Source: Pararhizobium capsulatum DSM 1112
GTDB lineage: Bacteria; Pseudomonadota; Alphaproteobacteria; Rhizobiales; Rhizobiaceae
DNA length: 64,000 bases
Assembly: GCF_030814475.1 (NCBI RefSeq)
Contig: NZ_JAUSVF010000001.1
Coordinates: forward strand, 3,478,001 to 3,542,000
Direction: 5' to 3'
Below the pieces are notes generated by a model. The model made no database searches, had not been told where the DNA came from, and worked only from the letters and a program-made list of their open reading frames with translations. The position numbers and the translations under genes were made by a program. Below, one piece after another: positions 4,130 to 26,849 of the stretch. Position 1 is the stretch's first letter; each line of letters begins with the position of its first letter.

Positions 4130-5836
4130 TTAACCGCGCTCCTCCAGAACACGGTTTGCGGCCGACACAATAGCTTCCAGAGATGCACCAACGATGTTCG
4201 TGTTGATGCCGGCCCCGAAGAGCTTGCCGCTCGGATGCTCCATCTCGACATAGGCGATGGCGGCTGCATTCGAGCCGTGCTGCAGCGAATGCTCGGAATA
4301 ATCAGCCACCGACATATCGATGCCGAGATAGATCGACAGCGCATTGATGAAGCCATCGATCGGACCTGTACCCTTGCCTTCGATGCGCTTGGTCTCGCCA
4401 TTGTCGGTGATCTCTGCGGCAACGATACGAACGCCCTTGTGCTCGCCCACCGGATAGGTGTGGTGATCGACGAATTTTATGCGCGCGCCCGGCTGGTCCA
4501 CATAGCGCTCGATGAAGCGGGCGTGGATCGCCTTCGACGGCAGTTCCTTGCCACCCTCATCGGTGATGCGTTGGATGTCTTCGCGGAACTCCACCTGCAG
4601 GTTGCGCGGCAGGTTGATACCGTAGTCTTCCTGCAGGATATAGGCGATGCCGCCCTTGCCGGACTGCGAGTTGATGCGGATGATCGCCTCGTAGCTGCGA
4701 CCGACGTCACGCGGATCGATCGGCAGATAGGGAACTTCCCACAGCGGCTTGTTGGCAACCTTGATCGCCTTCATGCCCTTGTTGATCGCATCCTGGTGCG
4801 AGCCGGAGAAGGCCGTATAGACCAGTTCACCGACATAAGGGTGGCGTTCCGGAATGATCATCTGGTTGGAATATTCGTAGACCTGCTTGATCCGCTCGAT
4901 ATCGGAGCAATCGATTTCCGGATCGATCCCTTGCGTGAACATGTTCAACGCCAGCGTCACGACGTCGACATTGCCGGTGCGCTCACCATTGCCGAACAGC
5001 GTTCCTTCGACGCGGTCTGCGCCGGCCATCAGGCCGAGTTCAGTGGCAGCGATGCCGGTGCCGCGGTCATTGTGCGGATGCAGCGAGATGATCAGGTTTT
5101 CGCGATTGTCGAGATTACGGCACATCCACTCGATCTGGTCGGCATAGATGTTCGGCGTCGCCATCTCGACGGTTGACGGCAGATTGAGGATCAGCTTGTT
5201 GTCGGCGGTCGGCTTGACGATTTCCGTGACCGCGTTGCAGATCTCCAGCGCCACTTCCAGCTCGGTGCCGGTAAAGCTTTCCGGCGAATATTCGAAGCGG
5301 AAGTCGCCGCCGGCCTTGGCGGCCATGTCGGTGATCATCTTGGCGGCATCGGTGGCGATCTGCTTGATGCCGGCAACGTCCTTGGCAAACACCACGCGGC
5401 GCTGCAGCTCGCTGGTGGAATTATAGAAATGCACGATCGGCTTGTTGGCGCCCTGCAGGGCCTCGAAGGTGCGGGTGATCAGTTCGGGACGGCACTGCAC
5501 CAGAACCTGCAACGAGACGTCGTCCGCCACATTGCCCTCTTCGATGCACCAGCGGGCGAAGTCGAAATCGGTTTGCGAAGCCGAAGGAAAACCGATCTCG
5601 ATTTCCTTGAAGCCCATGTCGAGCAGCAGCTGGAACATGCGCGCCTTGCGGTCGTGGCCCATGGGATCGACCAGCGATTGATTGCCGTCGCGCAGGTCGA
5701 CCGAACACCAGATCGGCGCCTTGGTGATTGTCTTGCTGGGCCACGTGCGGTCCGGAATGTTGATCTGTGGATAGGGCTGATACTTCACCGAAGCGTCGGA
5801 CATGCCCTGCTTGATAGAATGGGATTTCATGATCAT
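4130..5836 (-). CDS. leuA: 2-isopropylmalate synthase
   Basis: A 568-residue enzyme of the long (LeuA type 2) class that condenses acetyl-CoA with 2-oxoisovalerate, the first committed step to leucine. The TIM-barrel domain has the metal and substrate motif DLRDGNQSLVDP and the metal-binding HPHNDRGTG. The C-terminal third is the allosteric LeuA dimer domain used in leucine feedback (MEHPSGKLFGAGINTN region). I chose ATG 5836 because GAAGAGAAG precedes it; an in-frame ATG at 5830 is equally possible, and an upstream one at 5878 has no ribosome site. The gene stands alone between its own leader (leuL) and its terminator, so it is a single-gene unit under probable attenuation control. Confidence 0.95.
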   Translation of the reverse strand: MIMKSHSIKQGMSDASVKYQPYPQINIPDRTWPSKTITKAPIWCSVDLRDGNQSLVDPMGHDRKARMFQLLLDMGFKEIEIGFPSASQTDFDFARWCIEEGNVADDVSLQVLVQCRPELITRTFEALQGANKPIVHFYNSTSELQRRVVFAKDVAGIKQIATDAAKMITDMAAKAGGDFRFEYSPESFTGTELEVALEICNAVTEIVKPTADNKLILNLPSTVEMATPNIYADQIEWMCRNLDNRENLIISLHPHNDRGTGIAATELGLMAGADRVEGTLFGNGERTGNVDVVTLALNMFTQGIDPEIDCSDIERIKQVYEYSNQMIIPERHPYVGELVYTAFSGSHQDAINKGMKAIKVANKPLWEVPYLPIDPRDVGRSYEAIIRINSQSGKGGIAYILQEDYGINLPRNLQVEFREDIQRITDEGGKELPSKAIHARFIERYVDQPGARIKFVDHHTYPVGEHKGVRIVAAEITDNGETKRIEGKGTGPIDGFINALSIYLGIDMSVADYSEHSLQHGSNAAAIAYVEMEHPSGKLFGAGINTNIVGASLEAIVSAANRVLEERG

Positions 5837-5953
5837 TGCGGCTTCTCTTCGTCTTGAGGCGCATTGCCCGCATGCCATAACCGATCAGTGGTCGCAATGC
5901 GATGGCAAAATCTGCCCTTGATGGTTCTTTTCTTGAAGGATTTCAGAAGGTGA

Positions 5954-5996
5954 AAGGAGCTGGGGCCGGTAGGCTTTGGGCCACCGGGCGCTCCTT
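5954..5996 (-). promoter_or_regulatory. Hairpin of the leuA leader (candidate attenuator)
   Basis: AAGGAGC (5954-5960) pairs with GCTCCTT (5990-5996), and inside it CCGGT (5966-5970) pairs with ACCGG (5983-5987). On the minus strand it begins at the leader-peptide stop codon and is followed by a weak T-rich stretch. The position fits a terminator or pause hairpin controlled by ribosome stalling at the Leu codons. The competing antiterminator pairing is not obvious by eye. Confidence 0.55.
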
Positions 5997-6115
5997 CAAA
6001 GAACCCGGCAACCGCTTATAAGGCCGAGAAGAAGAAGCGAGGCGCACGAACGGTTGCGCGCGGCAAAATGCCCGCGGGAAACCTGTTCGTTGATCTGTGC
6101 GCCAATCGTCTGCAT
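5996..6115 (-). CDS. leuL: Leucine leader peptide of leuA
   Basis: A 39-codon reading frame ends 159 bases before leuA. Near its end are the codons CTT CTT CTT CTC GGC CTT, giving SLLLLGLISGCRVL before TGA. A block of consecutive Leu codons immediately before a stable hairpin, upstream of the leucine pathway gene, is the classical attenuation layout. Scarce charged tRNA-Leu would stall the ribosome and change folding of the RNA. The ATG at 6115 is the best start; the frame is open further upstream but includes a tandem repeat that looks non-coding. The product has no expected function as a protein. Confidence 0.75.
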   Translation of the reverse strand: MQTIGAQINEQVSRGHFAARNRSCASLLLLGLISGCRVL

Positions 6116-6169
6116 ACGTGTTGTATAACTGGGGAAAATTCCGGGGGCAAGAGAGCTGTCAGGAAAAAA

Positions 6170-6205
6170 CCGGACAATGCTGTGCAGCCGGACAATGCTA
6201 TGCAG
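6170..6205. repeat. Tandem 18-bp direct repeat upstream of leuL
   Basis: Two adjacent 18-base units (6170-6187 and 6188-6205) begin CCGGACAATGCT and differ at one position (TGTGCAG against TATGCAG). They sit in the divergent gap between the leuA leader and the Phd antitoxin, where promoters of both transcripts must lie. Confidence 0.85.
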
Positions 6206-6241
6206 ATTGCGAAGGTTCCGGGATGCCGCTAGAACAACGGG

Positions 6242-6517
6242 ATGACAATCATCCCGATCCGCGAAGTCGAAAACCGTCTGATCGAACTTGCCCGCCGTGT
6301 TGAAGGCGGCGAGACCATTACAGTCACGCTCGATGGCAAGCCGGTAATGGACCTTGTTCCCTCGCAGAAGAAGGGCGGGATCAATTGGGAAGGGCTGCGC
6401 GCTTTCAAACGCGAAAATGGCATCACGCAAATTTTCGGTGAGATTCCGGCCGATTTCGACAATCCGCTCCCGGAAGACTTCCTGATAACACCGTTACCGC
6501 CCTTTCCCGAAAAATAA
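6242..6517 (+). CDS. Phd/YefM-type antitoxin
   Basis: A 91-residue antitoxin of the prevent-host-death fold. The N-terminus (IIPIREVENRLIELARRVEGGE, then ITVTLDGKPVMDLVP) is the usual DNA-binding and dimer part. The C-terminal tail (FGEIPADFDNPLPEDFLITP) is the acidic and proline-rich segment that wraps the partner toxin. Its TAA overlaps the toxin ATG by one base. The neighbouring PIN gene is frameshifted, so this antitoxin may now be an orphan. It reads away from leuL, and its promoter region holds the tandem repeat. Confidence 0.82.
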   Translation: MTIIPIREVENRLIELARRVEGGETITVTLDGKPVMDLVPSQKKGGINWEGLRAFKRENGITQIFGEIPADFDNPLPEDFLITPLPPFPEK

Positions 6518-7777: not shown

Positions 7778-8356
7778 ATGAAAAAAATCCTGTCTCTCGC
7801 CGCCGCTCTTCTCGCGGTCTCCTCAGCTCCCGCCTTCGCCCATCTGGACCCTGCCGAGCACGGTTCGCTGATGGCCGGCTTCACCCATCCGCTTTCCGGG
7901 CTTGACCATATGCTCGTCATGGTCGCTGTCGGCCTCTGGGCCGCACAGATCGGCGGGCGCGCGCTTTGGGTGGGCCCATCGGCCTTCGTCAGCACGATGG
8001 CGGTCGGCTTCGCGCTGGCCCTTGCTGGTGTCTCGCTTCCCTTCGTCGAGCCTGCGATCCTCGCTTCGATCGTCGCGCTTGGCCTCTTGGTCGCAATGGC
8101 CGTGCGTTTTGAAACCGTCGCCTGCGCCGCTGTCGTTGGCGTCTTCGCCCTCTTCCATGGCTATGCCCATGGCGGTGAGTTGGGAGCGGCAGGCGCCGTG
8201 CCCTTCGGCACCGGTTTCGTCATTGCCACGGCGCTGCTGCATGCCGCCGGCATCGGCCTTGGTCTCGGCATTGGCAGGCTTTCTGCCGGCGGTGTTCTTT
8301 CCCGCATTCTCGGCGGCATCACCGCACTTGCCGGTCTCGCGCTGATCTTCAACTGA
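7778..8356 (+). CDS. HupE/UreJ-family membrane protein
   Basis: A 192-residue integral membrane protein with an N-terminal signal peptide (MKKILSLAAALLAVSSAPAFAH) and about six hydrophobic segments. The HupE/UreJ marks are HPLSGLDHMLVMVAVGLWAA near the N-terminus and FALFHGYAHG in the middle, both His-rich and thought to carry nickel or cobalt through the membrane. Members elsewhere serve hydrogenase or urease, but no such genes are in view, so the metal and client are open. ATG 7778 follows GTGGGGAA; an earlier in-frame start four codons upstream lacks good spacing. Confidence 0.85.
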   Translation: MKKILSLAAALLAVSSAPAFAHLDPAEHGSLMAGFTHPLSGLDHMLVMVAVGLWAAQIGGRALWVGPSAFVSTMAVGFALALAGVSLPFVEPAILASIVALGLLVAMAVRFETVACAAVVGVFALFHGYAHGGELGAAGAVPFGTGFVIATALLHAAGIGLGLGIGRLSAGGVLSRILGGITALAGLALIFN

Positions 8357-8370
8357 GCAGACATAGCCTG

Positions 8371-8409
8371 AAACAGAAACGGCGGGCCAAAAGCCCGCCG
8401 TTTCTGTTT
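8371..8409. terminator. Bidirectional terminator between hupE-like gene and queF
   Basis: A perfect 17-base inverted repeat (8371-8387 and 8393-8409) with a 5-base loop. It has a GC core and A-rich/T-rich flanks on the stem itself. It lies 15 bases after the plus-strand stop and 6 bases before the minus-strand queF stop, so it can end both transcripts. Confidence 0.85.
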
Positions 8410-8414
8410 GGACA

Positions 8415-8879
8415 TCATCCCCGTCCGCGATAGGGCTGCACACCCTGATCCGGCAGCCACACGGCTTCCGGCGGTGCGCCCGTCTGCCAGAAGACATCGA
8501 TCGGGATACCACCGCGCGGATACCAGTAGGCACCGATCCTGAGCCACTTCGGCGACAGCAGATCCACCAGCCGCTTGGCGATGTCGATCGTGCAGTCCTC
8601 GTGGAAGGCACCGTGATTGCGGAAGGAATGCAGGTAGAGCTTCAGCGACTTGGATTCGACCAACCAGCCGTCCGGCACGTAATCGATGACAATATGCGCG
8701 AAGTCCGGCTGCCCCGTCATCGGGCAGAGCGAGGTGAATTCGGGTGCCGTGAAGCGCACCACGAAGTCAGTGCCGGCATGGTTACTCGGCACGCGCTCCA
8801 GTACAGCCGTTTCAGGGCTCATTGGTGCCTCAACGGCCTGCCCCAGTTGCGAGAGGCCGGAAACATCGGTCTTGCTCAT
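8415..8879 (-). CDS. queF: NADPH-dependent 7-cyano-7-deazaguanine reductase
   Basis: A 154-residue QueF of the short, type I form. It reduces preQ0 to preQ1 in queuosine biosynthesis for tRNA wobble modification. The catalytic Cys is in [10 protein letters not shown] with the family Asp four residues later in PD, and the QueF signature ESKSLKLY follows. Its ATG overlaps the stop of the CDF transporter by four bases (ATGA), so the two are translationally coupled. The pairing with a metal exporter has no obvious metabolic reason. The rest of the preQ0 pathway (queC, queD, queE) is not in the window. Confidence 0.95.
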
Positions 8880-9796
8880 GATTTCAATCCTTCAACGACT
8901 TTGACGCGGATGCCATGGGCTTTTTCACCCTCAGGCTCCACATGAATGGCGATCTTTGCGCCGGGATGAACGCCCCGAATGGCATCTTCAAGGCGGTCGC
9001 AGATATCGTGCGCTTCCCGAACCGGCATTACGGATGGAACAACCATGTGGAAATCCACGAAGATCGCCGGCCCGGCCTGACGCGTCTTGAGATCATGCAC
9101 GCCGAGCGAACCTGCTCCATTTGCGGCAATTGCATGCTTGATCGCCTCTTCCTCATCAGCGGGAACAGCGCGATCCATCAACCCATCGACGGAGCGGGCA
9201 ATGACCTTCCACCCCTGATAGAGAATGTTGCAGGCGACGATGACAGCCAGCAGCGGATCGAGCACCGCATAGCCGGTCGCGATCGCTGCAATGAGGCCGA
9301 CGAGAACGCCGACGGACGTGACCACATCGGACAGGATGTGATGGCCATCCGCCTCCAGCGCAGGAGAACGAAGGCTCTTGCCGGCCCGGATCAGAATCCA
9401 GGCCCAGACCGCGTTGATGACGCCCGCCAGAAGGTTGATACCCAGACCCAGCACTGGAGCATCAGGCAGACGCGGAGCGAAGATCGCCGGGATAGCTTCC
9501 CCGACGATCAGCAGCGCTGCGACAACAATCAACACGCCCTCGATAACCGCAGAGAAATACTCAGCCTTGTAATGGCCGAAGGGATGGCCGGCATCCGCGG
9601 GCTTCGCCGCATAACCGATCACCACGAAGGCAACGACGGCGGCCACGACATTGACGATGGACTCGAGCCCATCCGACAGCAGGGCGACCGAGCCGGTTAC
9701 CCACCAGGCCGCCATCTTGAGCCCCAGCACGGCAAGTGCCAGCGGAATGCCCCAGAAAGCGAGCCTCTGTGCCTTGTTCTTGTTGCTGTTCGTCAT
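8876..9796 (-). CDS. Cation diffusion facilitator transporter
   Basis: A 306-residue CDF-family exporter of divalent metals (Zn, Fe, Co, Mn or Cd) driven by proton exchange. It has six membrane segments and then a C-terminal cytoplasmic domain from about residue 210 ([11 protein letters not shown]). Metal-site residues appear as [11 protein letters not shown] in TM2 and [12 protein letters not shown] in TM5; the HxxxD in TM5 is typical of zinc or iron transport, but the TM2 site is S-D-G-L-E. ATG 9796 follows AGGGAAC; an earlier start at 9853 would run through the trpE(G) terminator and is less likely. It is the first gene of a two-gene operon with queF. Confidence 0.9.
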
Positions 9797-16448: not shown

Positions 16449-18128
16449 TCAAAACAGCCCTTCGATAAAGCCGTCGTCGTTGAGGAAAATCCTCTCCGAC
16501 GATGGCACACTTGGCAGCCCGGGCATGGTCATGATCTCACCGGTGATAACGACCACGAAACCGGCGCCGGCCGAAAGCCGAACCTCGCGCACCGGGACCG
16601 TATGCCCCGTGGGAGCGCCGCGCAGATTGGGGTCGGTCGAGAAGGAATACTGGGTCTTTGCTATGCAGACCGGCAGGTTGCCATAGCCCTGCGCCTCCCA
16701 TGCATGGAGCTGGTCACGCACCTGCTTGTCGGCGATCACCTCACCTGCATGGTAAATCTCGGTGGCAATCGTCTCGATCTTCTGGAACAGCGGCATGTCA
16801 TCGGGATAGAGCGGTGAAAACTGCGCATGGCCGCCTTCCGCCAGCTCCACGACCTTGTGCGCCAGATCCTCGATCCCGCCCGACCCTTGCGCCCAATGGC
16901 GGCAGAGCACGGCTTCGGCGCCCAGTGTCGCGACATAATCCTTCACCGCCTGGATTTCCGCTTGAGTATCGGTTGCGAAGTGATTGATGGCGACGATGGC
17001 CGGCACGCCGAATTTCTTGACGTTCAGCACATGGCGGCCGAGATTGGCGCACCCCTTGCGCACAGCCTCGACATTTTCGCTCCCGAGATCCTCCTTCTTC
17101 ACGCCGCCGTTCATCTTCATGGCACGAACCGTAGCGACCACGACCGCGACGTCGGGCTTCAACCCGGCTTTGCGGCATTTGATGTCGAAAAATTTCTCCG
17201 CCCCGAGATCGGCGCCGAATCCGGCTTCCGTCACCACATAGTCGGCAAGCTTGAGCGCCGTCGTCGTCGCCATTACCGAATTGCAGCCGTGAGCGATATT
17301 GGCAAAGGGACCGCCGTGAACGAAGGCGGGATTGTTTTCGAGCGTCTGGACAAGATTCGGCTGCAGCGCATCCTTCAAAAGCACAGCCATCGCACCATCA
17401 GCTTTGAGGTCGCGTGCGAAGACCGGTGTCCTGTCGCGGCGATAGCCGACGATGATGTTGCCTAGGCGAGCTTCGAGGTCCTTCAGGTCCCGTGAGAGAC
17501 AGAGAATGGCCATGACCTCGGAGGCGACGGTGATGTCGAAACCCGTCTCGCGGGGGAAACCGTTGGCGACACCGCCGAGCGAGCCGACGATGTGGCGCAG
17601 CGCCCGGTCGTTCATGTCCATTACCCGCCGCCATGCGATGCGACGGACGTCTATGCCCTCTGCATTGCCCCAGTAGATGTGGTTGTCGATAAGGGCGGCC
17701 AGCAGATTGTGCGCCGAGGTAATTGCGTGAAAATCGCCGGTGAAATGAAGATTGATGTCTTCCATCGGCACGACTTGCGAATAACCACCGCCGGCAGCTC
17801 CGCCCTTCACACCGAAACACGGACCGAGCGAGGCTTCACGAATGCAGACCACCGCCTTTTTACCGATCCGGTTCAATCCGTCACCGAGCCCGACCGTGGT
17901 CGTCGTCTTGCCCTCGCCGGCCGGTGTCGGGTTTATAGCGGTCACAAGGATCAGCCGGCCATTCTTCTTCTCCCTTTGGCGAGCGATGAAGCCGGCGCTG
18001 ACCTTCGCCTTGTCGTGGCCGTAGGGAACGAGATCTTCCGGCGGTATGCCGAGCCGCGCACCGATCTCGTAGATCGGCTTCTTGATGGCAGTGCGCGCAA
18101 TTTCAATGTCCGACTTGACCTCGCCCAT
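16449..18128 (-). CDS. fhs: Formate-tetrahydrofolate ligase
   Basis: A 559-residue cytoplasmic enzyme making 10-formyl-tetrahydrofolate from formate, ATP and tetrahydrofolate, feeding one-carbon units to purine, formyl-Met and serine synthesis. The ATP site is the P-loop [18 protein letters not shown] near residue 70. The C-terminal half carries the family segment GQ-like [10 protein letters not shown]. The length equals the family norm. ATG 18128 follows GGGGAGA and starts [11 protein letters not shown], where homologues start; the open frame upstream is not conserved. It follows the DUF2333-type gene on the same strand, about 140 bases away, so it is probably separate. Confidence 0.96.
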
Positions 18129-18270
18129 ATGGTGTCTCCCCCGATGCACCTTGTTATGGCGACATAAAATCGCGAAAGGCGGCGCAACGCCAGCCTTTGT
18201 TTCAACGGCGTACAAAACCCGCCAACAGCTTTCACCGATGGCGGGGCAGGAGTGTCGTCCGAAGGAAAAA

Positions 18271-19473
18271 TCAGCGAGCGAGAACGTCGCGCATTTCCAC
18301 GAGGTTGGAGCGGACCCGCAGAATATAGAAGCCCATCGTCGCCAGATGCGTCGGCATGATCCAGCCATCCTCACGCCCGTTGGAGATGATCGCGGGCTGG
18401 ATGCGCAAAGCCGCACGCAGTTGCTTGATGCTCTCTGTCCAGATCGGGTCTAGTCCACGCTGTGTGATAACAGCCTGGAAATCCGCACCAGCCGCCGCCA
18501 TCACGCCGTAGTAGCCGTAAAGCTGGCCGTAGGCGAACCAGAACCGATCGTCCGCGCGCGTATCGAACCATCCGCCATTATGGTTTTCAGAGCGCTCGCG
18601 GATCATCGCTGACGTGTTGCCGAGATCGTTGGCGATACGATCGAGGAACTCGATCAGGTTGTCGGAGCGGCCGTCAAAGGTCGCTTCGCATTTGATGAGG
18701 CTTTCATTGAAGGCCTGAAGATCGCGCATGGCGCTGCGATAGAAGCTCGGCGTCGGCGTCTTCGGGCCGAAGGGGTCGAGCCCGAAATACCAGGCGGTTT
18801 CGTCGAACTGCATGTTGGAACGGGCGCGCTGCAGGTTGTTGTTGATGCCTGAGGTGCCGCGGACGCGACCGAGGGAGTCGACCAGTTCCACCGTTGTACG
18901 CCGGATCGCCTGGTTCACACCGCGCTGGAACGAAGCCTTGTTATCGAGCCAGGGCGTATCGTCCCAATCCATCCCGAACAGCCCAGTCTTGTAGAGCAGC
19001 ATCGAGGAAATCCAGGCATTCTGATTGACATTGAAGTCGATGAGATCGGCGGAAACATCGACGATTGCCGAGCGTTCGCAGGTGCTTCCCGGAGCCGGTG
19101 CAGGGGCCGTTGCCAGTTCGGCTGTGCTTGCGTCGGGGGCAGTCGTGGTGTTCGCATTCGCGGTCGTTGCCGCCCCGCCCGACACGGGCTTGGTTGGCAA
19201 TCCTGCGTCATTCTTGCGTGCCGCGAAATTATACCGGTCGACATAATCGGGATTGAAATTCGTCCATGCCTGGGTCTGCCAGATGAAATAGCCATAAAGG
19301 CCGAACAGGGCGATCAGGAAGATTCCGATCGGTCCCTTGATGATCCAGGCGCGGGAGCGGTACCACGTGGCGATTGCCACGAAAGGGGTCAGTATCCAGG
19401 AAATCGCCAATCCGATGCCGCGGCCGATGGCCGCAAAAACACGCTGGAAGAACGTGACGATCGGATCAAGCAT
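18271..19473 (-). CDS. DUF2333-type membrane-anchored protein of a five-gene locus
   Basis: A 400-residue protein with one clear membrane segment near residues 47-64 ([17 protein letters not shown]), perhaps a second hydrophobic helix before it. A Thr/Ala-rich linker (about 95-125) then leads to a large soluble domain with conserved-looking blocks [22 protein letters not shown] and [17 protein letters not shown]. It resembles DUF2333, whose function is unknown. Its start overlaps the end of the upstream gene by 8 bases, so it is the last gene of the coiled-coil/AAA locus. I infer that it anchors the group to the inner membrane. Confidence 0.75.
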
Positions 19474-20767
19474 TGGCGGTATCCTCCTTGAGCCCGTAAA
19501 GGCGTCTGCGAAATGCAGTCTTGTCCTTCAGATATGCACCTGTCAGCGTCGCCACAACATATTCGCGGAATTTTTCGCTGTAGCGTTCATAGGCTGCGTA
19601 AAAACCCTGCTTGTCGAAGACGAAGCGGGAAACGAAATCATCCGGCGTCAGCTGAGATATCAGCCGGTTGACCAGCCACTGATCGGGATGTTCGGGCGCT
19701 GCCCGCACCAGCTGGAACCGTTGCGCTGGCGGTACGTCCTGCATCTTGATGACGCCTGTTGCCATGACCGTGCGGATGGCATTCTGCAAGAACGGATAAA
19801 TCCCGTTCTTCGCCACAGTGGCGGCATTGCGATGCATCCAAGTCTGCAGCCAGATGGCATCGATCGCATTCTGATCGACGGTCGGCTCCGTCTCATTGAC
19901 CAGCGCACGGATCACCATGTCGGCGCGGTGCTGGTAGAGGCCCGATGTCTCCACCCAGGATGCCTGCGGCAATTGCAGCCGGTTTGTCGAAGCGAGGAAA
20001 TCGAAGATGCGCTGGTGATCAGACAGGCCGATGTAACTTACCTGCCACGGCCGCGAACGACGGAAACCTGGAACGGATGGATCGCAGATCACCGTCGTCG
20101 TCTTGTCATCGAGGAAAATGTAGACGCCGCCGAAATGATTGGCCCAGAAGGCATCATGCCGGAAGACGAGCTTGTCGGGTACGAGAGCGTTTTCCCGGAT
20201 ATCGCCGGTCAGCTTCGCCAGTTCCACCATGCGGTTCAGCAGCGTGTCATCCGCCCATGCAGTCGGCACGGTTTTCAGACGATCGACGAGCGAGCGAAGC
20301 TCACCGGCCTTGCCCAGCATGTCCTCCGCGGAAAGAACCCGGAATCGGACCTCGTTGATCGACAGCAAGTCGTCGATATCGGTGACCACCGAAACGCTGT
20401 CTTCGATCTCCCCGTAAAGCGCATCGCGGATCGTCACCGCATTGATCGCGCGGGCATTGGCGGCGAAAAACTCGTGCATCAGGGCGGCAGTGTTGGAAAA
20501 GCTGGTGTGGACAACCGGCAGCTCTTCCTGCGCGGGTGTCATGATGATGAAACGGCGGTTGACGCGGTTCGGATCGAGATAGTCCCGGTCGCCGAGTTCA
20601 TCGGCAATTTCGGGGGAGAAGCCGGTCATGTCGATCTGGAACGACGAAAGCCCCGTCGGGCGTAGTCCGAACCCGGCCAGCGCCTTGTTGTAGCGCGCGA
20701 TCAGGTGTGGCTCCGAGATATCGAGCAGCCGGCCATAGATCAATTCGGCTTCGAGGAGGCGTTTCAT
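19466..20767 (-). CDS. Large soluble protein of unknown function (DUF6638-like) in the AAA locus
   Basis: A 433-residue protein with no signal peptide or membrane segment and no motif I can assign an activity to. It begins MKRLLEAELIYGRLLDISEP. The middle has VYIFLDDKTTTVICDPSVPG and the C-terminal half is helical (DWLVN-type and FREYVVATLTGAYLKDKTAFRRRLYG). I believe relatives are annotated DUF6638 but could not check. It overlaps the membrane-anchored gene by 8 bases. A toxin-antitoxin pair separates it from the AAA gene upstream, yet all are on one strand with small gaps. Confidence 0.75.
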   Translation of the reverse strand: MKRLLEAELIYGRLLDISEPHLIARYNKALAGFGLRPTGLSSFQIDMTGFSPEIADELGDRDYLDPNRVNRRFIIMTPAQEELPVVHTSFSNTAALMHEFFAANARAINAVTIRDALYGEIEDSVSVVTDIDDLLSINEVRFRVLSAEDMLGKAGELRSLVDRLKTVPTAWADDTLLNRMVELAKLTGDIRENALVPDKLVFRHDAFWANHFGGVYIFLDDKTTTVICDPSVPGFRRSRPWQVSYIGLSDHQRIFDFLASTNRLQLPQASWVETSGLYQHRADMVIRALVNETEPTVDQNAIDAIWLQTWMHRNAATVAKNGIYPFLQNAIRTVMATGVIKMQDVPPAQRFQLVRAAPEHPDQWLVNRLISQLTPDDFVSRFVFDKQGFYAAYERYSEKFREYVVATLTGAYLKDKTAFRRRLYGLKEDTANA

Positions 20768-20797
20768 GCTGTGCGGACGGACCTTGGCGAGAGTTCG

Positions 20798-21067
20798 TTA
20801 TCTGTAGACGTCACGTCGATGCCCGATCTCGACAACGAGAATGACCAGACGCTGATCCTGAAGCCTGCAGAGGATTCGAAAGTCTCCGACCCGATAACGC
20901 CAGAGATCTCCAAGTTTCGAGCCCTGCAACGCCTGACCCAGTTGCCGGGGATTATCCATCGCCAGCACCCGGCGATACAAAAAGTCGACGATGCGTTGGG
21001 CGTCGGAAGAGCTTACTTTCTTCAGGCTCCTTTCGGCGACATCGGAGATTTCAATCGTCCAGGCCAA
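20798..21067 (-). CDS. RelE/ParE-family toxin
   Basis: An 89-residue toxin of the RelE fold, which cuts mRNA in the ribosome. The core is WRYRVGDFRILCRLQDQRLVILVVEIGHRRDVY, typical of the RelE/StbE branch. It starts with TTG at 21067, inside the last 17 bases of the antitoxin gene; the sequence AWTIEISDVAERSLKKV fits the RelE N-terminus, supporting this start. The pair sits inside the five-gene AAA locus on the same strand. Confidence 0.88.
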   Translation of the reverse strand: MAWTIEISDVAERSLKKVSSSDAQRIVDFLYRRVLAMDNPRQLGQALQGSKLGDLWRYRVGDFRILCRLQDQRLVILVVEIGHRRDVYR

Positions 21068-21284
21068 GTTCTCTCATGACCTCCTTGAAAGGACGGGTGC
21101 TGACCTCACCGCGTTCAATGCGCTCAACCACGCTTTCCGCAAGATAGATATCCTCCAGATCCTCGAGATGCTCCTCAATCGCCTGCCGGATATAATATGT
21201 CGCCGTGCGACCGGTGCGGGCGGCAAGGGCCTGCAGCCGTTCATAAGTCTCGTCAGGAAGACGAACTGCCGTTTGCTTGGCCAT
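21051..21284 (-). CDS. Ribbon-helix-helix antitoxin of the RelE pair
   Basis: A 77-residue antitoxin. The N-terminus AKQTAVRLPDETYERLQALAARTGRTATYYIRQA-like segment (residues 2-35) is a ribbon-helix-helix DNA-binding fold. The rest (ERIERGEVSTRPFKEVMRELGLDD) is the acidic toxin-binding tail of the RelB type. ATG 21284 follows GGGGAG. The gene ends inside the toxin start. A perfect 16-base palindrome 14 bases upstream is the likely autoregulatory operator. Confidence 0.88.
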   Translation of the reverse strand: MAKQTAVRLPDETYERLQALAARTGRTATYYIRQAIEEHLEDLEDIYLAESVVERIERGEVSTRPFKEVMRELGLDD

Positions 21285-21297
21285 GACCAACTCCCCT

Positions 21298-21313
21298 GGG
21301 ATACGCGTATCCC
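21298..21313. promoter_or_regulatory. Perfect 16-bp palindrome, candidate TA operator
   Basis: GGGATACGCGTATCCC is fully self-complementary and lies immediately upstream of the antitoxin ATG, next to an AT-rich ACATTATCAT stretch that could be a -10 region on the minus strand. Ribbon-helix-helix antitoxins repress their own promoters through such sites. Confidence 0.65.
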
Positions 21314-21360
21314 ACATTATCATAACCATGACGCGACTTCCACTTGAAGGAATCAAACGT

Positions 21361-23271
21361 CTACCACCGCCCGTCCCTCTTCATTTCCTCGATCTCCCGC
21401 ACCGCCCTTTCCCGCTGGCGTTCGCGGCGGATGATGTCGTTGACGGCGGCATCGTCGGATTTGTCGGTGTAGCGGAATTCGCTGTCGGCGTAGCGGTTGA
21501 TCTCCTGCAGCACCATGGGCAGCGTCACGGGGCCGCGCAGTTCCTCGATCATCGCCTTCTTCTCGTCGTAGGGCCTGTGCATGAAGCTTGCGGCGTCCCT
21601 GAACCAGTCGTCCGGCAGTTCGACATCCATCGCCCGCATCTTGATCGCGTCCGTGATGTTCTTGATGGCGCGGCCGGTGAAGCGCGGTTCGGCAAGCTTG
21701 ATCTCGTGCAGATAGGCACCAACATCGGCGAGCGTCGTGATCGCGCCCCTCGCCTTTTCGAAATGCTCCCAGACGGCCACCAGCCCCTCCTCCTTCGGCC
21801 GGGAATGGGCCTCGTAGGATTGCGATACGGCCTTCTTTATTTCCTGCCCAGCAAAGAGCGCATGCTCACCGAGCGGGATCTTGTGGTTCTTGCCGACCAG
21901 CATGGCGAAGATGTCGATGTAATCGGCCTCCGTCTGCGGCCCATCGACCAGCCAGCGGGCCCCCGCGCGCTGGCGCAGCGCATCGTCGACATTCTCCGGG
22001 TAGTTGGAAAACATACCGAAGGTGCAATTGCCGCGCACGACGGTCGAGGCCCCGGCAAAACTTTCCATCAACACCGCCGTCACCTCATGCTGGCCGGCGG
22101 AAGCGCGGTCATCAGAGCGCTTGGCCGCGACCTGATCGACGTCATCGATCGTGCCAAACCCAATGGCGCGCGGGTGGATGACGTTGTTGACGAATTCCTT
22201 GCAGTTCTGGCCCGACTTGCCCTGGTAGGAGGAAATCTGGTCGACGCCGAAATTCTCGTAATGGAAGGCGTAACCGGCGACTTCGCAGTAATCGTTGAGC
22301 ATACCGGCCAGCATCTGGATCAGGATAGTCTTGCCGGTGCCCGGCATGCCGTCGCCGATGAAGGTGAAGAGGAAACCACCGAGCTCGACGAAGGGATTCA
22401 TCTGCCGGTCGAAATCATAGGCCATCAGCATCTTGGCAAGCTTCAGCGCCTGATACTTGGCGATGTGGTTGCCGATGATCTCTTCCGGCTTCTTGAAGGT
22501 CATCACCAGCGGCTTGCGCTTGGCGCCGGGGGCGACATCGAAGCCATTCAGCGTGAAATCATCCTGATCAAGCCGAATATGCGCGTTTTCGAAGGCGGCA
22601 AGTCCTGTAAAGCGCGCCTTACGGCCAATCAGTCCCTCGATCGCCACACGGGCGAAAGCCCGCGCCCGGCTGGTCAGCGCCGGATCGTCAGGCGCGCCGG
22701 CAATCGTCTTGTCGAGCGCCGAGATCATCGACTTCAGCGCATCCTGTGGCGTGTCGAAGAGGAAATCGGGCTCTGCGCCATCCTCGACCGGCTCGCCTTC
22801 ACCCGTCAGTGTGGAAGACAGATAGGCCGCGAAGGTGAAGGCGGCGACATAGGCCGAGGCCGAAAGCAGCGCCTTGAAGCGGCCCGCCTCCTCACCGGCA
22901 AGCGGCGCGGACGCGTTGCGCGATTGCAGGCTTTCGAGGTCGGTCTGGCGGGCAAAGACATCGGCAACCGCAAGCGCCACCTGCGAAGCGCGCCTTGCGC
23001 GATAGAGCAACGCATGCTGGGCGAGCGACATCAGCGGGTCGCCCGTATGCACGCTCTGTATCGTCTTGATCAGCTCCACGTCGCGCGTGCGGCGCTGGCC
23101 ACCGGTCGAAACCGTCGAGACGAAACGCCTTCCCGTGCCGGCAAGCGGTGTCGATGAGGCTGGATCATCCGCTTCGAGAATGATCCGCCGGGTCACCAGC
23201 CCCTGCGCCACGGCCTGGTGCCTGGCGATATCGTCCTCATGCAATGTCGTCAGGCCGGTATTCAGGCTCAT
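21361..23271 (-). CDS. AAA-family ATPase at the core of an uncharacterised locus
   Basis: A 636-residue ATPase. A 300-residue helical N-terminal region leads to Walker A GDGMPGTGKT (306-315), Walker B-like IGFGTIDDVD (370-379), a sensor-1/arginine region MFSNYPENVDDALRQRAGAR (420-439) and a sensor-2-like FTGRAIKNI (531-539). The order is that of AAA proteins that remodel or unfold partners. It has no protease, helicase or nuclease domain. It starts 4 bases after the stop of the preceding gene, a tight operon link. The 3' end is a basic coiled tail (RRERQRERAVREIEEMKRD). I do not recognise a characterised orthologue; role in envelope or stress physiology is a guess. Confidence 0.85.
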   Translation of the reverse strand: MSLNTGLTTLHEDDIARHQAVAQGLVTRRIILEADDPASSTPLAGTGRRFVSTVSTGGQRRTRDVELIKTIQSVHTGDPLMSLAQHALLYRARRASQVALAVADVFARQTDLESLQSRNASAPLAGEEAGRFKALLSASAYVAAFTFAAYLSSTLTGEGEPVEDGAEPDFLFDTPQDALKSMISALDKTIAGAPDDPALTSRARAFARVAIEGLIGRKARFTGLAAFENAHIRLDQDDFTLNGFDVAPGAKRKPLVMTFKKPEEIIGNHIAKYQALKLAKMLMAYDFDRQMNPFVELGGFLFTFIGDGMPGTGKTILIQMLAGMLNDYCEVAGYAFHYENFGVDQISSYQGKSGQNCKEFVNNVIHPRAIGFGTIDDVDQVAAKRSDDRASAGQHEVTAVLMESFAGASTVVRGNCTFGMFSNYPENVDDALRQRAGARWLVDGPQTEADYIDIFAMLVGKNHKIPLGEHALFAGQEIKKAVSQSYEAHSRPKEEGLVAVWEHFEKARGAITTLADVGAYLHEIKLAEPRFTGRAIKNITDAIKMRAMDVELPDDWFRDAASFMHRPYDEKKAMIEELRGPVTLPMVLQEINRYADSEFRYTDKSDDAAVNDIIRRERQRERAVREIEEMKRDGRW

Positions 23272-23275
23272 GGGG

Positions 23276-24424
23276 TCACACCTCGCTTACCACCTGGTTT
23301 CCGGAAATCACATGCACCTTGTAGTCGCCGAAGATCGCGGCGACATCGCCGGCAGCATAAAGCGCCTGATAGGCCTCGTGCGGCACCAGTGCATGCTTCT
23401 CGAAGGAACTGACCCCCATGCGCGTCGCTTCGAGATTGTCCGTATCGATATGGAATTCCTCGGAGGCCGGTGTCGAGGACCAAAAGCCGCGCTGGGCAGG
23501 ACGTTCTGCCTTGGAGAAGACCTCCTGCACTGTCCAGGTCAGTAGCCAGGCATTCTCCAGCTTGCGCACCTTGGAGAGGATGTCGTTGATGCGCGCATTG
23601 TTCTCGGTGATCCCGGCCGAATAGAAAGGCCCGAGCACGATGCGGCGCAACTGCTTGGGATGCAGCTCCTCGAAATCCTTGTCGAGATTGGTGGCGATCG
23701 TCACCGGCGACAGGGAATAAGCGCTGTTCTTCAGCGTAAAATCATCGAAACGGCTGGCGAGTTCCGGATTGAGCAACCCACCGATCGGCAGCGGGATATC
23801 CTGGTCCGGGTTTAGCTTGCCATCGGGCGTCACCAGCAGATTGACGATCTTCTCGGACGAATCCTCGATCGTTGACATGTAGATCATCGGCAGCGTGCTG
23901 GTGCCGTCGAAGGCACCCCAGCACACCACGTAGTACGGCCGCATGGTCTTCGGATTGACGGCAACTCTTATCGTCTCGGGCAGGATGAAGGGCGAGAAAA
24001 TGTCGCCCTTGCCGATCTGCTCCAGATAGAGCCGCTCGGCCATGCGCGCCTGAAGGTCGGTTGGAAACACCTTTTGCCGCAGAATGAAATCGGCCATTTC
24101 TGCGCGAAGCGCATCGGCAACGGGAATGCTGGCCAGCCGCTTCTCGGCCGTCTGCCGGTCGTTTTCGAGTTCCAGCACATTCTGGAACACCGGAAAGCCG
24201 CTTTCAGCGCGGGAAATGCGAAACTGGTCGATAAAGCCGACACGGTTTTCCCAGCAGGAGAAAGAGGATTTCAGCCGTGCGAGATAGGGAACGACGACTT
24301 CGCCGACCACGGAATTGCGGTAAAGCGGCGAATTGCGGTCGGCGAGGAAGATTTCCAGCCCGGCAAGGGCGGCGTGGATGGAGCCGAAATATTGGCCGAC
24401 GGGGCCTTCGAGGGCGGCGTTCAT
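23276..24424 (-). CDS. Uncharacterised helical protein, AAA-locus partner
   Basis: A 382-residue soluble protein with no signal peptide or membrane helix. It opens with a helical segment (GQYFGSIHAALAGLEIFLADRN). A central beta-rich part (YVVCWGAFDGTSTLPMIYMS) is followed by HPKQLRRIVLGPFYSAGITENN and a C-terminal block ending VISGNQVVSEV. I cannot assign a function. Four bases separate its stop from the AAA start, so the two proteins are probably made together and may act as a complex. The RIME-type repeat lies just upstream of this gene and could alter expression of everything after it. Confidence 0.75.
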   Translation of the reverse strand: MNAALEGPVGQYFGSIHAALAGLEIFLADRNSPLYRNSVVGEVVVPYLARLKSSFSCWENRVGFIDQFRISRAESGFPVFQNVLELENDRQTAEKRLASIPVADALRAEMADFILRQKVFPTDLQARMAERLYLEQIGKGDIFSPFILPETIRVAVNPKTMRPYYVVCWGAFDGTSTLPMIYMSTIEDSSEKIVNLLVTPDGKLNPDQDIPLPIGGLLNPELASRFDDFTLKNSAYSLSPVTIATNLDKDFEELHPKQLRRIVLGPFYSAGITENNARINDILSKVRKLENAWLLTWTVQEVFSKAERPAQRGFWSSTPASEEFHIDTDNLEATRMGVSSFEKHALVPHEAYQALYAAGDVAAIFGDYKVHVISGNQVVSEV

Positions 24425-24454
24425 GGGTGGTCAACCTTGCGGTGATGAGTGCGG

Positions 24455-24575
24455 GTTCGCCCCTCATCCGGCCTGTCGGCCACCTTCTCCCCGCTGGCGG
24501 GGAGAAGGGACAAGCGGCAAACTCCGTGGTGCCCTCTCCCCGCAGGCGGGGAGAGGGCTAGGGTTTGGGGCAATC
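24455..24575. repeat. RIME-type rhizobial intergenic palindromic element
   Basis: Two GC-rich palindromes in tandem: CCTTCTCCCCGC-TG-GCGGGGAGAAGG (24483-24508) and CCCTCTCCCCGC-AG-GCGGGGAGAGGG (24532-24557), preceded by CCCTCATCCGGCCTGTCGGC. This matches the sequence style of the Rhizobium-specific intergenic mosaic element. It fills the 187-base gap between the first and second genes of the AAA locus. Confidence 0.85.
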
Positions 24576-24611
24576 CTGTGAACGAAGACGCACCGCGCAT
24601 GGCTGCAAGCA

Positions 24612-25700
24612 TCACGACTTCACGTAATTCGCAGCATTGTGCTTATCCATCACCGTCTGGAACCGCCGGGCAAAGGCATCATCCGCAAGTTTCTTCCGCC
24701 GCTGGATGTCCTGAGTCGAGAGCATGTTCTTCTCGTGCATCTCCAGGAGATCACCGATATGGCGCTGGGCAGCGGAACCGATGCCGGCCATGGTTTCCTC
24801 AGCCGCCGTATCCACTTGACTGCCGAGCGTGTTGATCTTGTGGGCGACATCCTGCTGGGCTGCTGTCTTCAGCGAATCTTCCAGCGCCTTGTAGAGCACG
24901 ATGCGCTGCTCGGTATCGATCGTCAGCTTGTTGATCAGCGTGTTCTGGGCGGCGATCTGGTTGTTGAGCGAATCGACGAAGGTCTGGAACATCGAGGTGT
25001 AACGCTCGTAGGTCTGGCTTTCGGCCAGCAATTCCTGCTCCTTGGCCTGCTTCTCGTTATATTCCGTCGCCAGCACAGAGCGCTCGCCTTCGAGCTGGGT
25101 CCGCGAAATCTGGTCGGTGGAAGCCGCGATGCGGTTTTCGATATCCATCAACATCGGGTTCAGCTCCTCGATGCGCTTTTGCACCTCCTGCAGCTTGGCA
25201 ATCGTACCCTTGCGCCGCTCGATCACCTGGATAAGGCTCGCCTCCGACGTCTTGTAGCGCTGGTCGAGGACGGATTTCTGCTCTTTCAGAATGCCGACGA
25301 TAGTGTCGGACTTGGACAGCAGCTCCTGCAGGTTGCCGGCCAGAGACATGTTGCGGACGCGATCGGTGCGCATGCGCTGGGCGCTCTGCTTGGAGAAGAT
25401 GCCGATGAATTTCTCATAGCCGGTGAAGGTCTTCATGCTCTCGAATTCGGCGCCGAAAACATTGGTCGCATCCTCAAGCCCGATGATCAGATCGGCGATA
25501 TTGCCTTCCATCACCTTCTGCTGGCGGATTACGTCGTCGATGCGGGCATTCTCGATGTCGAAATTGGCATCGCCGAGCTTGGTGTCGGCCTTGGCGAACT
25601 GGTCGAGCACGACGGCCGACTGGTCCATCTTGCCACGCATCTCCTGAACGATTCCGCGGGTCTTTTCGATCTCGCTTTCAAAATTCTGAAGTGTCGCCAT
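24612..25700 (-). CDS. Long coiled-coil protein, first gene of the AAA locus
   Basis: A 362-residue protein that is nearly all helix, with heptad patterns from about residue 1 to 280 (for example IAKLQEVQKRIEELNPMLMD, and EYNEKQAKEQELLAESQTYE). It lacks a signal peptide and membrane segments. The C-terminus is basic (RRKKLADDAFARRFQTVMDK). ATG 25700 follows CAGGGGGAAAA; an ATG nine codons upstream is less well placed. No activity can be read from it; some coiled proteins of this sort are structural adaptors. It is the first gene of the minus-strand set with the helical protein, AAA ATPase and two further unknowns. Confidence 0.78.
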   Translation of the reverse strand: MATLQNFESEIEKTRGIVQEMRGKMDQSAVVLDQFAKADTKLGDANFDIENARIDDVIRQQKVMEGNIADLIIGLEDATNVFGAEFESMKTFTGYEKFIGIFSKQSAQRMRTDRVRNMSLAGNLQELLSKSDTIVGILKEQKSVLDQRYKTSEASLIQVIERRKGTIAKLQEVQKRIEELNPMLMDIENRIAASTDQISRTQLEGERSVLATEYNEKQAKEQELLAESQTYERYTSMFQTFVDSLNNQIAAQNTLINKLTIDTEQRIVLYKALEDSLKTAAQQDVAHKINTLGSQVDTAAEETMAGIGSAAQRHIGDLLEMHEKNMLSTQDIQRRKKLADDAFARRFQTVMDKHNAANYVKS

Positions 25701-25819
25701 CGGATTTTCCCCCTGTTTGCCGATCATGACGCATCGCGTCGCCGGATTATTCGAAGCCGGACCGGATTATATAATGGTCCCCGCACTTTGAAGCACAAGG
25801 GTTGCAGGCGGGATTATTG

Positions 25820-26206
25820 CTATTTTGGCGCGGCGACCGATTTCAGATAGGCAACGACATTGGCGATATCGTTGGGTTTCTTCAGACCTGCAAAGGTCAT
25901 TTTCGTCCCCGGCACCATCGCCTTGGGGCTCAGAAGATATTCCGAGATCCGCGCCTCGTCCCAGACTTTCCCATCGGCGCCGAACTCGGTCATGGCCGAG
26001 GAGTAGCTGTAGTTTGGCACTGTCGCGACCGGACGACCGATGACGCCGAGAAGGCTCGGGCCGACCCGGTTGGTGGGTTCGGTTGCGGTGTGGCAGGCAC
26101 CGCATTTGCGGAATACGGCGGCCCCGGCTTCGGCATCGCCGGCGGCCTGGGCAGCGACGGCGGAAAGACAGAGACAGAGGATGGAGAAAAACAGACGCGG
26201 CATCAT
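25820..26206 (-). CDS. Class I c-type cytochrome
   Basis: A 128-residue exported cytochrome. Signal peptide at about 1-21 (LSAVAAQA/AG cleavage), heme attachment CGACH (35-39), and the distal Met ligand at about 103 in VPGTKMTF. The VGPSLLGVIGRP segment is typical of mitochondrial-type cytochromes c in alphaproteobacteria. It would carry electrons in the periplasm between bc1 complex or dehydrogenases and oxidases. It is a single gene between the coiled-coil locus and thymidine kinase. A start one codon later is equally possible. Confidence 0.93.
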   Translation of the reverse strand: MMPRLFFSILCLCLSAVAAQAAGDAEAGAAVFRKCGACHTATEPTNRVGPSLLGVIGRPVATVPNYSYSSAMTEFGADGKVWDEARISEYLLSPKAMVPGTKMTFAGLKKPNDIANVVAYLKSVAAPK

Positions 26207-26267
26207 GACAACCCCGGAAAGGCAGAAAGCGCCACCATGGCACGAAGCGCCGCCTTCGCGAAAGCCG

Positions 26268-26849
26268 TCAAACCTCGTTCATCAGGTCGTCCCAATGCCG
26301 GCGGCAATAGGAAACATACTTCTCGTTGCCGCCCACCTCGATCTGCGCACCCTCGCGAATGACCCGCCCTTCGGCATCAAGCCGTACCACCATCGTCGCC
26401 TTGCGACCGCAATGGCAGATGGTGCGCACTTCACGCAGCTCGTCGGCGATGGCCAGCAATGCCATTGAGCCGGGAAAAAGCTTGCCCTGAAAATCGGTCC
26501 GCAGACCATAGGCCATGACCGGAATGCCGATCCGATCGGCAACACGCGCCAGCTGCCAGACCTGTTCTTCCGCCAGGAACTGCGCCTCGTCGACGAAGAC
26601 GCAGGCGATCTTTTCCTCGTCGTGAAGCCGCTCGATCATCGCATAGAGATCGTCCCCGTGAGCGAAAGCCGTCGCATCGGCACTCAACCCGATGCGCGAC
26701 GATATCCGGCCCTTTCCGGCGCGATCGTCGAAGGCCGCGATCAGCACCAGCGCGCGCATGCCGCGTTCCTGATAGTTGTAGGAAGCCTGCAGCAGCAGGG
26801 TGGATTTCCCTGCATTCATCGTGGCGTAGCTGAAATAGAGTTTGGCCAT
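26268..26849 (-). CDS. tdk: Thymidine kinase
   Basis: A 193-residue type II thymidine kinase that phosphorylates thymidine for salvage. P-loop MNAGKSTLLLQ at the N-terminus, the Walker B/DEAQF motif (CVFVDEAQFL), the lasso segment GGNEKYVSYC, and zinc-site residues in ICHCG and CRRHW. ATG 26849 follows AGGACAG and starts MAKLYFSY like relatives; the frame extends 11 codons upstream with two more ATGs but without conservation. It stands alone. Confidence 0.95.
   Translation of the reverse strand: MAKLYFSYATMNAGKSTLLLQASYNYQERGMRALVLIAAFDDRAGKGRISSRIGLSADATAFAHGDDLYAMIERLHDEEKIACVFVDEAQFLAEEQVWQLARVADRIGIPVMAYGLRTDFQGKLFPGSMALLAIADELREVRTICHCGRKATMVVRLDAEGRVIREGAQIEVGGNEKYVSYCRRHWDDLMNEV

Follow-up and report, generated by a model that had tools for sequence, protein, structure and literature searches.

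What is the group of five genes built around an AAA ATPase in Pararhizobium capsulatum DSM 1112, and which of its members belong together? The group occupies positions 18271-25700 of a stretch of 64,000 nucleotides, here called the window, from a source genome of 6.48 Mb (G000), and an earlier note on this DNA had regarded it as a unit of no nameable function, possibly an ATP-driven machine tethered to the inner membrane. Four of the genes, encoding a coiled-coil protein (CC), a second protein termed HEL, the ATPase and a DUF6638 protein, form a real and conserved unit, which has a facultative membrane partner (DUF2333) and carries a variable slot between the ATPase and DUF6638 genes. This four-gene unit is apparently undescribed so far, a status drawn from literature searches on the system and its DUF names, in which no description of it was found. 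It is unusual in being kept between distant proteobacteria, with ATPase identity down to 39% and no function found, and two of its four proteins belong to no Pfam family; defining the unit would give a function to DUF6638 and perhaps to DUF2333.

The features of the locus, from the first core gene onwards, are as follows.

24612-25700, minus strand: CC, coiled-coil protein of 362 residues, core gene 1 (open reading frame; no Pfam family over cut-off)
24425-24611: spacer of 187 bases between CC and HEL, with a near-perfect palindrome at 24482-24509 (from the sequence)
23276-24424, minus strand: HEL, 382 residues, core gene 2 (open reading frame and structure model; no Pfam family)
21361-23271, minus strand: AAA ATPase, 636 residues, core gene 3 (Pfam AAA)
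20768-21360, minus strand: variable slot of 593 bases between ATPase and DUF6638 (junction counts)
21051-21284, minus strand: slot gene for an RHH (ParD-like) antitoxin (RHH_1, DUF6290 and TraY over cut-off)
20798-21067, minus strand: slot gene for a ParE-family toxin, which overlaps that of the antitoxin, with a TTG start of our choice (PF05016, 1.2e-13)
19466-20767, minus strand: DUF6638 protein, 433 residues, core gene 4 (PF20343, 2.2e-74)
18271-19473, minus strand: DUF2333 membrane protein, 400 residues, facultative gene 5 (PF10095)

The five minus-strand open reading frames proposed earlier were recovered at the same coordinates, together with the 4-base gap between HEL and ATPase (23272-23275) and the 8-base overlap of the DUF6638 and DUF2333 genes (19466-19473). 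The tight spacing ascribed to the whole group holds at these two junctions and fails at the others, where CC and HEL lie 187 bases apart and ATPase and DUF6638 593 bases apart; the same-strand ParDE toxin-antitoxin pair within the latter interval had been overlooked. By curated Pfam cut-offs, the DUF2333-like label is correct (PF10095; 66.2 bits, cut-off 22) and the product previously listed as a soluble unknown can now be named as a member of DUF6638 (PF20343; 251.3 bits, cut-off 27). HEL, described as helical, has a helical N-terminal part in a structure model (mean pLDDT 80.7) and a C-terminal part that is alpha/beta; a T-fold considered for HEL residues of about 158-344 gave no clear fold match. 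None of the five proteins gave an over-cut-off match in NCBIfam, hydropathy revealed no membrane segment in CC, and no relative of known function was detected for CC or HEL.

Conservation of the four-gene core

Homologues were sought in overlapping samples of 142 genomes across the class, 151 from the family, 199 from the order and 398 from the phylum, the source genome being counted in each, and the ATPase was matched in 2, 88, 30 and 26 of them, respectively. Gene arrangement was examined in two sets of loci, all picked for the presence of the ATPase: 40 fetched from the genome samples and 80 named loci which, as the best 80 of 505 confirmed, are near relatives of the window. These sets overlap partly (e.g., L114 and L139) and the 120 loci are not independent. 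CC, HEL, ATPase and DUF6638 occur in the same order and on one strand in 40/40 fetched loci, all four are present in 80/80 named loci, and no measurable pair of core genes lies on opposite strands; because of this agreement, the arrangement is considered to be far beyond chance. The conserved gene order, which the earlier note had proposed as a check, was therefore found. For four of the five genes, neither scattering in related genomes nor homology to a characterised system, either of which it had taken as grounds against the grouping, was seen, and no named system was matched; the fifth gene, DUF2333, proved variable.

As all the loci had been selected via the ATPase, separate searches with CC, HEL and DUF6638 served as a converse test. 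Among the 199 order genomes these proteins were matched in 32, 29 and 32, respectively, and 29 of the 30 ATPase-positive genomes carry all four core genes; the sole exception, G450, which gave no CC or HEL match, is 58% complete. Parts of the core accompanied by no ATPase match were found in G170 and G269 (CC without HEL or DUF6638), in G422 (CC and DUF6638; the genome is 78% complete and the ATPase end lies at a contig edge) and in G382 (DUF6638 and DUF2333 on a 3.2-kb contig). Within the family, CC was matched in all 88 ATPase-positive genomes and in six more with no ATPase match (G170, G188, G269, G281, G193 and G251), of which G193 gave a weak match (E 9e-4 only) and G251 is 68% complete, with a contig ending inside HEL.

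The closest named relatives are Pararhizobium and Rhizobium records with ATPases 95 to 90% identical to that of the window, and distant loci show identities of 48-53% for the ATPase, 34-42% for CC, 20-29% for HEL and 28-36% for DUF6638. Outside the Alphaproteobacteria, all four core genes are found in order in G522, with identities of 30-50%, and ATPase matches of 39-40% identity occur in four Vibrio records, of which the two that were opened (L267 and L268) encode CC, HEL, ATPase and DUF6638 in the same order. Since the Vibrio records and G522 keep these four genes, the core is defined by them. A gene annotated mfd lies directly after DUF6638 in both opened Vibrio records (12283-15744 in L267 and in L268).

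A reduced form of the locus, in which a CC relative and DUF2333 adjoin a thymidine kinase gene, was found in G170, G269, G188 and G281 and on plasmid pSK03 of Rhizobium leguminosarum BIHB 1148.

L256, L257, L263, L264 and L271: reduced loci, with the order thymidine kinase, CC relative, DUF2333

In these five loci HEL, ATPase and DUF6638 are jointly missing, with no match to any of them. A thymidine kinase gene lies inside the fetched stretch in 62/80 named loci and an FTHFS gene in 66/80; among the five reduced loci, all but that of G281 likewise include FTHFS in the stretch fetched. Because the surroundings are shared, we infer that the three genes were lost rather than primitively absent. 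R. leguminosarum plasmids provide a contrast: L271 carries the reduced locus, whereas L270, plasmid pRlX5 of strain TP16, carries the four core genes with no DUF2333 match.

A facultative membrane partner

DUF2333 is present in 25/40 fetched loci and in 79/80 named loci, the only named locus lacking it being a 5-kb contig, and it was matched neither in 15/40 fetched stretches nor in either of the opened Vibrio stretches. Family genomes carry it more often than the ATPase (114/151 versus 88/151), and it occurs in 87/88 ATPase-positive genomes and in 27 genomes with no ATPase match, five of which have a CC match. These counts do not support a membrane anchor as a fixed part; the inner-membrane tethering suggested earlier is possible and would be facultative.

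The N-terminus of DUF2333 is hydrophobic, with 19-residue windows exceeding 1.6 that start between residues 16 and 49 and a peak at 42-60, and it may form one or two membrane segments. Residues C132 and C262 are kept in 107/107 DUF2333 proteins, of which 100 have no other cysteine and seven have a third. If there is a single segment and the N-terminus lies inside, the two cysteines would face the periplasm, where they could pair.

A different membrane protein, DUF1523, follows DUF6638 in G522 (L090, by Pfam), and DUF1523-like proteins, recognised by their first residues only, follow it in L089 and L101; our guess is that the L089 group (f24) belongs to the Rhodobacteraceae. In L101, from a single order genome, a PspA/IM30 gene and a YiaAB gene (5299-6315) lie about 1.4-2.4 kb beyond DUF6638, past the DUF1523-like and opposite-strand genes.

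Both DUF families are uncharacterised. Literature searches on their names yielded nothing for DUF6638 and, for DUF2333, only PMC5256989, the accessible text of which places duf2333 of Pseudomonas fluorescens MFE01 between amidase and NUDIX genes at a type VI secretion system hcp locus. The accessible text of PMC7327166 concerns other rhizobial growth proteins and not this system.

The ATPase and its candidate client

The ATPase exceeds the curated Pfam score for AAA (PF00004; 42.2 bits, cut-off 21.2); the score alone is the basis for calling it an AAA-domain protein, and it is a predicted rather than a proven hydrolase. Conservation was followed in an alignment of 114 sequences, comprising 113 loci and the window; rows left out of the locus data were the CC of L112, the ATPase of L123 and some named-locus open reading frames, for which no start codon could be reached by extension. 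The eight residues checked in Walker A (306-315) are identical in 114/114, and YQGKS (349-353), D376, D377, D379, R385, N423, R433, R435, R439 and R534 are likewise unchanged. By eye, the Walker A residues checked, YQGKS, N423, R433, R435, R439 and R534 are also kept in a Vibrio homologue of 39% identity. From their positions and general AAA anatomy, we take YQGKS to be pore loop 1, N423 to be sensor-1-like and the arginines to be fingers and sensor 2. The Walker A and arginine-finger regions that had been described as intact are thus invariant, and the Walker B-like region ends in D376-D377, not Asp-Glu, in 114/114. Walker B of most AAA proteins ends in a catalytic glutamate.

The classical AAA ATPases (PF00004; AFG2, i-AAA protease and TRIP13) have in common with the window protein Walker A, a pore-loop-like aromatic residue, a sensor-1-like asparagine and arginines at finger positions, whereas the latter is set apart by its Asp-Asp Walker B, by an N-terminal region of about 300 residues (before residue 307) with no Pfam match at E 1, and by a fixed set of partners. 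Its sequence relatives in the PDB are distant (AFG2, i-AAA protease and proteasome-activating nucleotidase; best E 5e-5), the nearest PADLOC family is TRIP13, a weak match (E 4.5e-7), and the other four proteins gave no PADLOC family match. A phage origin was rejected, as no ATPase match occurred among 50,697 phage records at E 1e-10. Type III of the cyclic-oligonucleotide-based anti-phage signalling systems combines a HORMA protein with TRIP13 and has a cyclase beside the ATPase; it was also rejected, with no HORMA or cyclase detected in the five proteins and five flanking ones by Pfam, nor in the five by PADLOC.

In alignments of CC, most invariant positions fall within residues about 222-308. 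Two of the reduced-locus CC relatives lack a 22-residue block corresponding to window residues 273-294, which lies inside this best-conserved region and does not make up the whole of it, and they diverge just after the block. The block is kept in all eight ATPase-linked CC proteins of the same alignment, two of them from Vibrio, and the remaining three reduced-locus relatives also lack the motif, by eye. Its loss is the strongest hint that CC may serve the HEL-ATPase-DUF6638 module, the alternative being decay.

We tentatively favour, with somewhat less than even confidence, a dedicated AAA+ machine that would thread or remodel CC assemblies, with HEL and DUF6638 as cofactors. The ATPase would form a ring in which the invariant pore-loop-like Y349 of YQGKS grips the substrate, which would be threaded or pulled. 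The main client would be CC or a CC assembly, engaged via its conserved C-terminal region and above all residues 273-294, and HEL and DUF6638 would be dedicated cofactors that recruit or process it. An envelope protein, either DUF2333 or in other genomes DUF1523, may connect CC with the inner membrane in many alphaproteobacteria, and optional passenger modules would sit in the slot that separates the ATPase and DUF6638 genes. We count as support the order and co-occurrence of the genes, the invariant ATPase motifs, the joint absence of HEL, ATPase and DUF6638 with the CC deletion, and the cysteines and hydrophobic N-terminus of DUF2333. The ATP-driven machine envisaged in the earlier note fits the invariant tyrosine, Walker A and arginines, and its inner-membrane anchor drops out as a fixed part.

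Several points weigh against this proposal. The choice of CC as client comes from one indel pattern, which could equally reflect contact with HEL or DUF6638, or decay, and the folds of CC and HEL were unmatched, leaving the client idea without structural support. Hydrolysis may be slow or unusual with D377 in place of the glutamate. Two membrane segments in DUF2333 are possible and would render its cysteines cytoplasmic, and DUF2333 is often found without the rest of the core. Finally, 63/151 family genomes have no ATPase match, and consequently the ATPase function is dispensable and not essential across the family.

An invariant pore-loop-like motif and several dedicated soluble partners would also suit a machine for protein quality control or protein activation with an unlinked client, for which CC, HEL and DUF6638 would be adaptors, as in other AAA+ chaperones. 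We consider this fairly unlikely, given that no peptidase domain was found in the five proteins by Pfam and no peptidase in the conserved core, and that CC is still present in loci devoid of ATPase, HEL and DUF6638. Single peptidase genes do occur in the wider neighbourhood (e.g., one annotated in L267).

The combination of a coiled coil, an AAA ATPase and a membrane partner also recalls the endosomal sorting complex required for transport (ESCRT)-III/Vps4 and PspA-AAA gene pairs, where a coiled-coil gene likewise adjoins that of the ATPase; CC would then polymerise on the inner membrane and the ATPase would disassemble it. PspA or Snf7 genes adjoining those of AAA+ ATPases are described in the accessible text of PMC11237479, and PspA and YiaAB genes lie near the core in L101. 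This explanation is unlikely, however, because CC is not detectably Snf7 or PspA: neither was matched in the window CC by Pfam at E 1, neither was among the 25 listed of 68 weak families for 28 CC members, and hhalign of CC against one PspA gave E 0.4. Moreover, Pfam at E 1 detected neither the N-terminal MIT domain of Vps4 nor any other family ahead of residue 307 in the window ATPase, CC shows no membrane segment, and nothing equivalent to HEL or DUF6638 appears in the pairs as presented in the accessible text of PMC11237479.

In size, coiled-coil make-up and, by eye, short motif spacing, CC is like TelA (PF05816, 'toxic anion resistance'). The identification was rejected, since hhalign gave E 0.12 (28 CC versus 7 TelA sequences) and 0.054 (32 CC, probability 1%) compared with 0.22 and 0.54 for reversed TelA, and TelA against the C-terminal part of CC scored 15.7, below the highest of 40 column shuffles (19.4). 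TelA was not matched by Pfam in the window CC nor found in the window's genome.

The slot between the ATPase and DUF6638 genes

Junctions were measured in 117, 113 and 113 of the 120 loci for the first three gene pairs and in the 104 loci with DUF2333 for the fourth. A length of at least 250 bases was found in 11/117 for CC-HEL, 5/113 for HEL-ATPase, 57/113 for ATPase-DUF6638 and 1/104 for DUF6638-DUF2333. Eight slot proteins, six of them checked in Pfam (the DUF4145 match lying under its cut-off), served as tblastn probes for calling the contents of the 57 long slots; the names of the small membrane protein and of the RelE-like partner of an HTH protein were assigned by eye. DUF559 proteins occupy 23 slots, HigBA-like pairs 12, ParDE 8, the small membrane protein 3, DUF4145-like proteins 2 and AbiJ_NTD4 1, with 8 unrecognised, and 49/49 recognised modules lie on the operon strand. 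The slot pair of the window, a ParE-family toxin and an RHH antitoxin with overlapping genes, is a putative ParDE type II toxin-antitoxin system.

Elsewhere in the 113 loci (2.05 Mb, of which the slots are 2%) the same probes gave a match in one locus, a count biased towards the slot by the origin of the probes, which came from slots themselves. A FastTree tree of the 114 ATPases requires at least 37 changes in slot state and at least 25 in presence or absence, unrecognised contents being treated as one state. Slot genes of L091, L093 and L096 lie within 4 bases of both neighbours, as overlap or gap; in L096 a gene of the abortive-infection family AbiJ_NTD4 (8059-9081) fills the slot, 3 bases past the ATPase gene and overlapping DUF6638 by 4 bases. 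We read the slot as a tolerant insertion place where co-directional modules are kept, and it provides a testable case of toxin and nuclease modules becoming attached to a core machine.

These contents, mostly toxin-antitoxin or nuclease-like and turning over, raise the question of whether the locus works in stress response or against phages, with the four-gene core serving for sensing or assembly and an exchangeable effector (ParE, HigB-like, DUF559 nuclease-like, AbiJ, DUF4145-like or membrane protein) encoded in the slot. The common strand of all recognised modules, the near restriction of probe matches to slots, the close fit of the slot genes in the three loci above and the weak TRIP13 match would agree with such a role. 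On the other side, the slot is shorter than 250 bases in 56/114 loci, and the core sits at a conserved chromosomal place marked by thymidine kinase and FTHFS. Typical defence loci are not known to sit at conserved chromosomal places. The phage records hold no ATPase match and PADLOC recognises none of the other four proteins; furthermore, picking the probes from slots biases the enrichment, and there is relatedness and some duplication among the 113 loci. On balance we judge this explanation to be an unlikely one. A more specific version, in which CC-HEL-ATPase-DUF6638 is a fixed chromosomal AAA+ machine that controls the exchangeable toxin or nuclease modules through an effector socket, appears quite improbable; if it were true, one conserved sensor-remodeller would be fitted with different effectors across lineages.

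The clearest exception to co-directional slot genes is an antisense open reading frame of 566 residues in the 1.9-kb slot of L126 and L183, which apparently represent the same genome. In Sinorhizobium meliloti Ak57 (L269, 10688-11851) the slot contains an annotated IS4-like transposase (ISRm16), which comes after a gene with an endonuclease domain.

A promoter scan of positions 18000-26400 was uninformative, with 0 found compared with 2.3 expected from shuffles. The CC start at 25700 is preceded by a purine-rich stretch, and the palindrome at 24482-24509, which occurs at one place within the window when up to 3 mismatches are allowed, resembles a rhizobial intergenic repeat.

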